Shown here: positions 13,408 through 45,604 of the stretch, one piece after another
Position numbering within the stretch: position 1 is the first letter of the stretch
How the letters are laid out: every line of letters begins with the position of its first letter
Notes under the pieces: generated by a model
Database searches by the model: none
Told to the model about the DNA's origin: nothing
The model's input: the letters and a program-made list of their open reading frames with translations, nothing else
Assembly (NCBI RefSeq): GCF_000470655.1
Contig: NC_021921.1
Coordinates: forward strand, 2,604,001-2,668,000
Reading direction: 5' to 3'
Length of the DNA: 64,000 bases
From: Halorhabdus tiamatea SARL4B
Lineage (GTDB): Archaea; Halobacteriota; Halobacteria; Halobacteriales; Haloarculaceae
Translations under genes and position numbers: made by a program

Positions 13408-13420
13408 CAGCCCTGAGCAT

Positions 13421-13619
13421 ACGGCTCGCCCTGGCGAGCCGTTTCACTCGACCGAGCGATAGCGAGGCCCGAACGAAGAGAGAGCCTCGGAAGTGCGAAC
13501 GGCGACCAACGGGAGCCGTGAGCAGCGAGGTCGCGGTGTTTTTGGTCCAGCTTTTTGCAAGGTGCCTTCCCGCAGGCCGCCAACGGCGGCCGAGGAAAGG
13601 CACCGCAGTAAAAAGGTGG
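13421..13619 (-). repeat. Post-stop structured non-coding module, copy 1 (after menB)
   Basis: Read on the minus strand, this begins 4 bases after the menB stop: CCACCTTTTT, a hairpin (GGTGCCTT...AAGGCACC with inner GGCCGCC/GGCGGCC), the core AAAAAGCTGGACCAAAAA, a second variable region, then GAGTGAAACGGCTCGCC closing a perfect 10-bp stem (ACGGCTCGCC/GGCGAGCCGT). The same order of constant boxes occurs after hpt at 45044-45157. The 5' box can pair with the first half of the core (9 of 10 bases). Confidence 0.75.
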
Positions 13620-13622
13620 TCT

Positions 13623-14522
13623 TCAGTAGTGCCAGGGGTACTCGTCGAAGTTCGGTTCCCGTCCCTCGTTGAAGGCGTCCCGACCCTCTTTTGCTTCGTC
13701 GGTCATGTACGCGAGGCGAGTCGCTTCCCCCGAGAACACCTGCTGGCCGACCATGCCGTCCTCGGGGAGGTTGAACGCGTACTTGAGCATCCGCATGGCG
13801 GTCGGGGACTTGCCCTCGATTCGGCTGGCCCATTCGAGGGCAGTCTCCTCTAACTCCTCGTGGGGGACGACGTCGTTGACCATGCCCATGTCGGCGGCTT
13901 CCTCGGCGTCGTAGGTCTTCCCGAGGAAGAACACCTCGCGGGCCTTCTTCTGGCCGATCTGGCGGGCGAGATACGCCGAGCCGAACCCGCCGTCGAAACT
14001 TCCGACGTCGGGGTCCGTCTGGAGAAATTTGGCGTGTTCCTCGCTGGCGAGTGTCATGTCACAGATCACGTGCAGCGAGTGGCCGCCGCCGACCGCCCAG
14101 CCGGGCACGACCGCGACGACTGGCTTTGGCATGTGGCGGATCTGGCGCTGGACCTCCAGAATGTGCAGGCGAGGGGCCTCCTGGCCGTCACGTGCGTCCG
14201 CGTCACCGTCCTCCGCGTACTCGTAGCCGGCATCGCCGCGGATCGACTGGTCGCCGCCTGCAGAGAATGCCCAGCCGCCGTCTTTCGAGGACGGGCCGTT
14301 GCCGGTCAGCAGGACCGTGCCGACGTCGGTCTGGCGTTTGGCGTGATCGAGTGCGGCGGCGAGTTCGTCGACCGTCTCCGGCCGGAAGGCGTTGCGAACG
14401 TCTGGCCGATCGAACGCGATGCGGACAGCCCCGACGTCGCGTGCTCGGTGATACGTGATGTCGGTAAAGTCAAAGGACTCGATCGGATCCCAGCGAGCTG
14501 GATCGAACAACTCCGAAACCAT
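13623..14522 (-). CDS. menB: 1,4-Dihydroxy-2-naphthoyl-CoA synthase
   Basis: This 299-residue crotonase-superfamily enzyme cyclises o-succinylbenzoyl-CoA. MenB-type features are FSAGGDQSIRG (oxyanion hole), PGWAVGGGHSLHVICDMTLAS and the typical C-terminus EGREPNFDEYPWHY. The longer open frame upstream (to 14942) overlaps the divergent PRC-barrel gene and is not used. It lies upstream of menA on the same strand, separated by 363 bases of repeats. Confidence 0.93.
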   Translation of the reverse strand: MVSELFDPARWDPIESFDFTDITYHRARDVGAVRIAFDRPDVRNAFRPETVDELAAALDHAKRQTDVGTVLLTGNGPSSKDGGWAFSAGGDQSIRGDAGYEYAEDGDADARDGQEAPRLHILEVQRQIRHMPKPVVAVVPGWAVGGGHSLHVICDMTLASEEHAKFLQTDPDVGSFDGGFGSAYLARQIGQKKAREVFFLGKTYDAEEAADMGMVNDVVPHEELEETALEWASRIEGKSPTAMRMLKYAFNLPEDGMVGQQVFSGEATRLAYMTDEAKEGRDAFNEGREPNFDEYPWHY

Positions 14523-44468: not shown

Positions 44469-45038
44469 ATGGATCGGCTCAAACAGTCGTTGCTCGACGC
44501 TCCAGTTATCGAGAAAGAGGAGTACCAGTACTTCGTCCATCCGATCAGCGACGGCGTCCCGATGCTCCGTCCCGAACTTCTCCGGGAGATCGTGATTCGG
44601 ATTATCCGGAAGGCTGAACTCGAAGACGTCGACAAAATCGTTACCCCCGCGGCGATGGGGATTCACATCTCGACTGCCGTCTCGCTGATGACCGATATCC
44701 CACTGGTAGTCGTTCGCAAGCGTCAGTACGGACTCGAAGGCGAAGTCTCCCTCCAGCAGGTCACCGGCTACTCCGAGAGCGAGATGTACGTCAACGACGT
44801 CTACGAGGGGGACAAGGTGCTCGTTCTCGACGACGTACTCTCGACTGGCGGGACGCTCGCTGGGATCACGGGTGCCCTCGAAGAGATCGGCGCGGAGATC
44901 GTCGACATCGTCGCAGTCATCAAGAAGGTCGGCGGTGAGAACAAGATCGACGACTCCGACTTCGACGTCAAGACGCTGATCAACGTCGACGTCGAGGACA
45001 TGGAAGTCGTCATCGTCGACGAACAGGGCGACGGCTAG
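44469..45038 (+). CDS. hpt: Hypoxanthine/guanine phosphoribosyltransferase
   Basis: The 189-residue protein has the PRPP-binding loop [16 protein letters not shown] and the haloarchaeal-type N-terminus [31 protein letters not shown]. It salvages purine bases; adenine specificity cannot be excluded from sequence alone. A structured repeat begins 5 bases after the stop. Confidence 0.85.
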
Positions 45039-45043
45039 GACCA

Positions 45044-45157
45044 CCACCTTTTTCATCGTCAGGTCGCCTTCGGCGACCTCTCCTTGAAAAAGCTGGACCA
45101 AAAATATCTCGGCGCTCACTTCGTTCACGCCGAGTGAAACGGCTCGCTTCGCTCGCC
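45044..45157 (+). repeat. Post-stop structured non-coding module, copy 2 (after hpt)
   Basis: It reads CCACCTTTTT, hairpin AGGTCGCC-TTC-GGCGACCT, core AAAAAGCTGGACCAAAAA, second hairpin CTCGGCG...CGCCGAG, then GAGTGAAACGGCTCGC. Boxes and order match copy 1 after menB (13421-13619), but the hairpins differ in sequence and length. Confidence 0.75.
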
Positions 45158-45193
45158 GTACCGCTGTGTCATTGACCGCTCACCGCTGCTCGA

Positions 45194-45604
45194 TCACAGA
45201 TCCGTCTCGATCACGTAGCCCCACTTTTCGAAGTCCTGGCTCTCGTAGTACTCGTGGACTGCTCGGTTGTCCAGCGGTGACGCCAGCGCGACACTCTCAC
45301 AGTCCTGCTTGACGGCCCACGACTCGACGTGTTCGAGCAGCGCTCTCCCGATGCCCTCCCCGCGTCGTGGCTCGTCGACGACGAAATCGTACAGCCAGGC
45401 GTGGCGCTGATGATGGAGGAAGTCGTCGATCCGGACGCCGGCCACGCCCAGGAGCGTGCTGTCCTCGGACGCGCCAAACAGGTGGTAATCGTCTTCAGCC
45501 GTCCACGTCCGGATTTCCCCGCGCTTGCGATCCGTCCAGAGTTGCTTGAGGATGGGGATCGCTTCTTCGCGGTCCGATTCGTCGATCAGTTCCAGGATTT
45601 CCAT
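45194..45604 (-). CDS. GNAT N-acetyltransferase
   Basis: The 136-residue protein contains the acetyl-CoA loop VVDEPRRGEGIGRALLEHVESWA and a C-terminal YYESQDFEKWGYV, typical of single-domain GNAT enzymes. Substrate unknown. Confidence 0.87.
   Translation of the reverse strand: MEILELIDESDREEAIPILKQLWTDRKRGEIRTWTAEDDYHLFGASEDSTLLGVAGVRIDDFLHHQRHAWLYDFVVDEPRRGEGIGRALLEHVESWAVKQDCESVALASPLDNRAVHEYYESQDFEKWGYVIETDL

Follow-up and report, generated by a model that had tools for sequence, protein, structure and literature searches.

In the haloarchaeon Haloquadratum walsbyi, small repeats known as SMRs include SMR-A, which is about 110 bp long and present in up to 54 copies, and their mobilisation is unexplained (PMC3119063). 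REP sequences are palindromes of 20-40 bp with an unpaired tetranucleotide, GTAG or CGTC, at one end (PMC3733652), and in Haloferax volcanii a T5C tract terminates transcription with an efficiency of about 95% (PMC7237163). The hairpin family described here, which was first noticed after the hpt and menB genes of Halorhabdus tiamatea SARL4B, shares features with each of these. Like SMRs, PATEs and MITEs, it is short, non-coding, multi-copy, palindromic and transposase-free (PMC3119063). It also resembles REPs and BIMEs, extragenic palindromes that keep their structure above their stem sequence and sometimes overlap stop codons, for which roles in termination or RNA stability have been proposed and which are thought to be mobilised in trans (PMC3733652). 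A T5 tract shortly past the stop codon is shared with haloarchaeal T-tract terminators (PMC7237163).

SMRs and PATEs do not duplicate their targets, which are other mobile elements (PMC3119063). The hairpin family, by contrast, is directed at the ends of genes, where it generates duplications of tens of bp, and its inverted ends can vary as long as they still pair. Its size and inverted ends fit the SMR definition (PMC3119063), but the target duplications that are present do not. Compared with REPs it is longer (60-230 nt, not 20-40), has two conserved T/A boxes, occurs in tens of copies and not in more than 100, and is associated with duplicated gene tails. The REP tag was not found at its ends, which read XYACC...GTATGC or ...RYC-A5; CGTC occurs only inside the P2 hairpin of some copies. 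Ordinary T-tract terminators function without a conserved paired partner, ACC-AAAAA or P3 and P4 hairpins. MITEs are defined by inverted repeats shared with an autonomous transposon and by a short fixed duplication; the duplication here is variable. Integron attC sites are imperfect palindromes with a variable middle that lie just after stop codons and are recognised by shape. In contrast to these, no R/L box core, integrase or cassette array was seen in the hairpin family, and its units duplicate gene tails only.

The window (the whole 64,000-nucleotide stretch of DNA that was analysed) holds just two copies of the family, and both are present where the preliminary description had placed them. 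The plus-strand copy follows hpt, which encodes a hypoxanthine/guanine phosphoribosyltransferase, and extends from CCACCTTTTT at 45044 to about 45158; the minus-strand copy follows menB and runs from 13619 down to 13417. In the window copies, P1 is a CCACCTTTTT/AAAAAGCTGG stem around the variable hairpin P2, followed by ACC-AAAAA and the hairpins P3 and P4. The features are listed below, where R1 is a covariance model of P1-P2-core built from 12 copies in the window genome.

45036-45038, plus strand: stop codon TAG of hpt (ORF 44469-45038; ORF list and match to HPT_Archaea NF040646)
45044-45053, plus strand: 5' strand of P1 in the hpt copy, CCACCTTTTT (R1 match at contig positions 2649044-2649104)
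45054-45086, plus strand: P2 of the hpt copy, a variable hairpin with an internal loop (fold and P2 covariation)
45087-45104, plus strand: core of the hpt copy, AAAAAGCTGGACCAAAAA, comprising the 3' strand of P1 (AAAAAGCTGG) and the conserved unpaired ACC-AAAAA (sequence, core search and R1 match)
45108-45134, plus strand: P3 hairpin of the hpt copy, CTCGGCG...CGCCGAG (fold)
45135-45158, plus strand: GAAAC linker and P4 hairpin (CGGC...GCCG) of the hpt copy (sequence and fold)
45194-45604, minus strand: convergent GNAT acetyltransferase ORF, stop codon at 45194-45196 (GNAT annotation of a similar sequence)
13623-13625, minus strand: stop codon TGA of menB (menB family match)
13610-13619, minus strand: 5' strand of P1 in the menB copy, CCACCTTTTT (sequence and R1 match)
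13557-13609, minus strand: P2 hairpin of the menB copy, long form (sequence and fold)
13539-13556, minus strand: core of the menB copy, AAAAAGCTGGACCAAAAA (sequence, core search and R1 match)
13446-13538, minus strand: P3 region of the menB copy, with several hairpins (sequence and fold)
13417-13445, minus strand: GAAAC-P4-GTATGC module of the menB copy (pattern match at contig positions 2617417-2617445)

The gap of 4-5 bases between stop codon and element that had been claimed for both copies holds for hpt (5 nt) but not for menB (3 nt). Among the boxes reported as shared, CCACCTTTTT and AAAAAGCTGGACCAAAAA are exact in both copies, whereas GAGTGAAACGGCTCGC is common to the hpt and menB copies but not to the family as a whole, in which only GAAAC, a hairpin and GTATGC are kept in this region. 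We also confirm that the 5' box and the core can pair at 9 of 10 bases.

Across the family the order from 5' to 3' is XYACC-T5, P2 with its internal loop, A5-(G/T)CT-Y'X', (A/G)(C/T)C-A5, usually P3, GAAAC, P4 and GTATGC. P1 can be generalised as XYACC-T5 paired with A5-NCT-Y'X', enclosing P2 and followed by RYC-A5 and usually by P3 and P4. All 17 core matches in the window genome are preceded by XYACC-T5 at the right place (one with TTTTC). The pattern GAAACG-N(10-40)-CGTATGC occurs 9 times in this genome and 8 of these occurrences adjoin a core; thus, the P4 module is part of the element. Branched variants of the element, with additional hairpins exactly at the P1 bulge, were seen at three loci (L217, L242 and L247), and in L247 CCACC pairs with GGTGG in place of GCTGG.

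A search of the 3.15-Mb window genome for the core with up to 3 mismatches recovered 17 matches (8 exact, 9 near), against 3 for a reversed-pattern control, and the covariance model recovered 22 copies at E<=0.01 and 28 at E<=1. This copy number is far beyond chance. R1 also matches 52 of 59 relatives at E<=0.01, with 1 to 49 copies each, and across the Halobacteriales sampled the copy number ranges from 0 to 50 per genome. In a phylum scan with stricter filters, 39 of 53 Halobacteriales genomes match R1 at E<=1e-4, and most genomes drawn from one genus (g24) have no R1 match. Hosts include Haloferax, Halorussus, Halococcus, Natrinema, Haloarcula, Halogeometricum and others. The haloarchaeal pattern had 0 matches among 2.9 million viral contigs, and a plasmid search with the hpt region recovered just hpt and GNAT homologues. 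When the whole window was searched with Rfam 15 (4227 covariance models), tRNA alone matched; for 10 element loci at E<=1, only tRNA and one sub-threshold tmRNA match were returned. Literature searches with the core strings and for haloarchaeal terminators, repeats and REPs found no description of the element family, and the core did not turn up in the text of 5.39 million papers; the family is apparently previously undescribed.

Pairing in P1 was assessed in an independent sample, collected with a sequence pattern that leaves positions X and Y free. Both positions are complementary in 76 of 79 haloarchaeal copies, against 28.1 expected; 20,000 shuffles gave a maximum of 44, so that none of them reached the observed level. 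After reduction to one copy per genus and type, 46 of 49 copies are complementary. Four P1 pair types occur (CC/GG, GC/GC, CG/CG and GG/CC), and several genera have two or more of them. For 82 distinct copies, in an alignment fitted to the covariance model, the covariation score is 0.261, against 0.071 +/- 0.007 when shuffled and at most 0.051 when slid, and 14 base pairs show double changes. These results lend good support to selection for base pairing or to some equivalent process that acts on the hairpin. The selection on structure that the preliminary description had anticipated from two copies is borne out by both P1 (76 of 79) and the score on the 82 copies.

Such pairing could also be kept purely by mutational mechanics, that is, by template-switch repair of palindromes and gene conversion, with neither function nor mobility. 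The fast turnover of the hairpin arms and the sharing of one subtype by copies within a genome are in line with this. Template switching, however, should erase the mismatch beside T5, and this mismatch persists in most copies: 66 of 82 are unpaired at model pair 5-159, and in the Halorhabdus copies C4-C70 is unpaired. Quasi-palindrome repair as the sole cause is rejected on this ground. Mutational mechanics also leave the spread to new gene ends, and the position there, unaccounted for, and we consider them a very improbable explanation overall.

Another explanation is that the element is a small RNA, or an RNA-protein binding module, which derives from 3' ends and serves trans regulation or RNA stability (for example, through U5-A5 pairing or triplex protection). 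The covariation is RNA-like, the ACC-AAAAA is conserved and unpaired, and G-T mismatches outnumber A-C mismatches in P2 by 45 to 22, as would be the case if the sense strand functioned as RNA. In P3, however, there is no bias (20:20), the P2 excess may be due to a single T-G pair that recurs in a P2 subtype (judged by eye), and P1 is equally kept where only antisense transcription is expected, all of which makes a small RNA improbable.

The position of the element relative to genes was classified at 123 loci; genes were called by a codon model that had been trained on the upstream genes, and tRNAs by ARAGORN. Class A loci (70 of 123) start -1 to 15 nt past a sense stop codon or tRNA end, and class B loci (26 of 123) have a convergent gene whose stop codon is no more than 100 nt from the core; together, gene 3' ends host about 78% of the loci. 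About 14 of the remaining 27 are downstream of a tRNA gene. The host genes in the window genome include hpt, menB, phoU, argF, leuA, nuoI, sufS, secY and CDC48, plus tRNAs. In Halobellus, the gene for DNA polymerase D hosts a class A copy, and similar C-terminal sequence flanks the class B copies L089 and L200. Placement after stop codons, as first described, is thus tight but too narrow as a rule, as it extends to tRNA 3' ends, to the far side of convergent genes and to predicted tRNA introns of other archaea. Random position combined with a lack of covariation had been named as the outcome that would speak against a structured module, and we found neither.

At several tRNA-linked loci a duplicated tRNA 3' end lies ahead of the element (seen directly at L011, L258 and L261). 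At L011 and L056 (upstream of the element), L258 and L261, a hairpin-rich stretch of about 90 nt, GGGAACG..AACGAGCG..GAGTGACCG, separates the tRNA gene from the element. This stretch is followed by the duplicated tRNA 3' end and is perhaps a second gene-end element family.

Co-directional neighbours of class A copies begin at least 122 nt beyond the core, so these copies mark the ends of transcription units, outside tight operons. Such positions would suit a bidirectional terminator or 3'-end element, in which the plus-strand T5 ends the transcripts of the left gene and the minus-strand TTTTTGGTCCAGCTTTTT those of the right gene, the hairpins aid termination or protect the RNA, and inheritance is mainly vertical. 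Many convergent gene pairs have one stop on either side of the element, the T5C tract is an efficient terminator in H. volcanii (PMC7237163), and orthologous copies persist at menB, phoU, secY and argF while their sequence changes under pairing. However, P1 cannot form in a transcript that ends at the first T5, yet it covaries strongly, and the entire element, including the antisense T tracts, is retained at menB, where a convergent gene is absent in the window genome. A pure bidirectional terminator fails on these two points. Furthermore, other archaea have sense T5 copies inside tRNA genes, and termination alone leaves the duplicated gene tails and empty sites unexplained. We therefore regard this explanation as rather unlikely as a full account. 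A terminator or 3'-end role of resident copies is plausible, given T5C termination in H. volcanii and the fit of placement and retention.

Duplicated gene tails accompany many copies. A direct repeat of the gene tail is present at 58 of 206 loci, its left copy ending no more than 10 nt from the element. At class B loci, the last tens of bp of the convergent gene are directly repeated to the left of CCACC, and this repeat ends 0-6 nt from the element. In a looser search, the distance between repeat end and element was 0 or 4 nt for almost all of the strongest repeats, which argues against a chance origin. In many cases the duplication starts at the stop codon or within it (L302, L315, L321, L332, L334 and L368); it is variable, roughly 30-60 bp in the shorter, single-unit cases and longer in tandem units. 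Arrays of tandem units, each an element plus a gene tail, occur in G003 (three units), L303, L332 and L355. The G003 array (L089, G003:C1:2265331-2265690) has three tandem units of 146-147 bp, each consisting of the element and the last ~39 bp of the neighbouring gene, and this tail resembles DNA polymerase D.

Empty and filled sites were found within one genus, at the end of an SDR-like gene. Two genomes (G338 and G253) lack the element there and read ...gccgtagccaaacagcg...TCACACCGTCTCGGG (stop codon TCA, then the gene). In G336, G206, G345, G358, G341 and others the site is filled and carries a 44-bp duplication starting at the stop codon; in G336 the same left flank is followed by this 44-bp copy of the gene tail, then by acac and the element, and finally by the intact gene tail. 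Judged from this sequence comparison, the arrangement is an insertion with a target duplication of ~44 bp. It is common to at least ten species, in which the P2 hairpins differ. A second locus, L227, had no clean empty site when compared across its genus.

In many loci the duplication leaves the gene whole on one side of the element, and the data suggest a mode of spread by insertion at gene ends without breaking the gene. Of the three possibilities raised in the preliminary description (terminators, a processing or stability element, a mobile cassette), a mobile cassette at 3' ends is best supported, by the duplicated tails, the empty and filled sites and the tandem arrays. With moderate confidence, we assign the hpt and menB copies to a Halobacteriales family of non-autonomous, shape-recognised miniature mobile elements that insert at gene ends and duplicate the gene tail. 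The variable duplications of tens of bp do not match the described haloarchaeal small-element classes (PMC3119063), which counts against mobility, and neither a transposase nor an enzyme-encoding donor copy was found. Similarly, stop-codon gaps of 0-6 nt are tighter than the tolerance of harmless insertions alone would give.

Of seven Halorhabdus genomes, six have the menB copy, as do G008, G013 and G039, and P1 has undergone compensatory changes among them. This distribution marks the copy as old; its P2 has been replaced between species. The menB gene is also the host at L354, by C-terminal sequence. Copies of the menB type that are kept across families look like host function and not parasitism. 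Other recurrent hosts are phoU (Halorhabdus and Haladaptatus), secY (Halorhabdus and G038) and argF (Halorhabdus and, by C-terminal sequence similarity, Halorientalis, Natrinema and G011). Among the phoU copies of five Halorhabdus genomes, P1 switches between CC/GG and CG/CG and whole P2 hairpins are exchanged, whereas the flanking genes are 83-87% identical. Five copies in G039 have the same P1/P2 box sequence but differ in their hairpin tips and in P3/P4, so fresh jumps of the whole element were not caught. At the hpt locus the copy is intact in the window genome only; G002 has a degenerate copy, and in the close relative G006 the hpt and GNAT ends are about 10 nt apart. With a degenerate copy and a short junction, gain and loss are inseparable, and hpt was ruled out as a clean empty/filled pair.

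For a mobile family of this kind, an enzyme or repair route would recognise the P1/P2 hairpin and insert further copies where genes end, and gene conversion may homogenise the copies of a genome. Resident copies could be tolerated, or kept as compact suppliers of 3' ends; their T5 tracts on both strands would be able to act as haloarchaeal terminators, with the hairpins shielding the RNA end.

Elsewhere in the phylum, many weak R1 matches correspond to a minimal form of 28-34 nt (for example, CAACCTTTTTGCAAGCAAAAAGCTTGACCAAAAA) that has A-T at the varying pair and keeps the C-C mismatch. In G112 (a 1 Mb genome) and G064 it lies within tRNA introns predicted by ARAGORN or in the D-loop of tRNA-Leu; the intron hosts are Tyr, Thr and Gly and the ARAGORN-called Thr, Arg and Met genes. 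It is also found directly 3' of tRNA ends in G112 and G082. Minimal-form loci are L483, L487, L490, L495 and L502 (G112), L518 (G064) and L459 (G082), and the tRNA-Leu D-loop copies occur in both orientations. Sense copies place T5 inside the tRNA gene, which argues against an obligatory terminator role of T5 there. Of the 21 tRNAs found in the sampled DNA of the small-genome relatives, 16 have predicted introns. Tandem repeats were also seen: L324, at a contig end of Candidatus Aenigmatarchaeota (DPANN), has a 38-nt tandem repeat with a minimal core 2 nt past a stop codon, and L511 and L520, in AT-rich genomes of the same phylum (G176 and G272), have 27-nt tandem units, CAACCTTTTTAGGAAAAAGCTTGACCA, and runs of TTGACCAAAAA.

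Tentatively, a class of mobile elements recognised as RNA or as a hairpin may span much of Halobacteriota, with a minimal form, XYACC-T5-loop-A5-GCT-Y'X'-ACC-A5, that homes to gene ends and forms or invades tRNA introns in small-genome relatives. If so, one element would lead two lives, as a tRNA intron and as a gene-end cassette, and the shared core in predicted tRNA introns would tie the gene-end elements to how archaeal tRNA introns spread. The haloarchaeal family itself is widespread, absent from our Rfam and literature searches and marked by unusually clear covariation, and it offers a route to study both how small elements spread without gene damage and how archaeal genes end.
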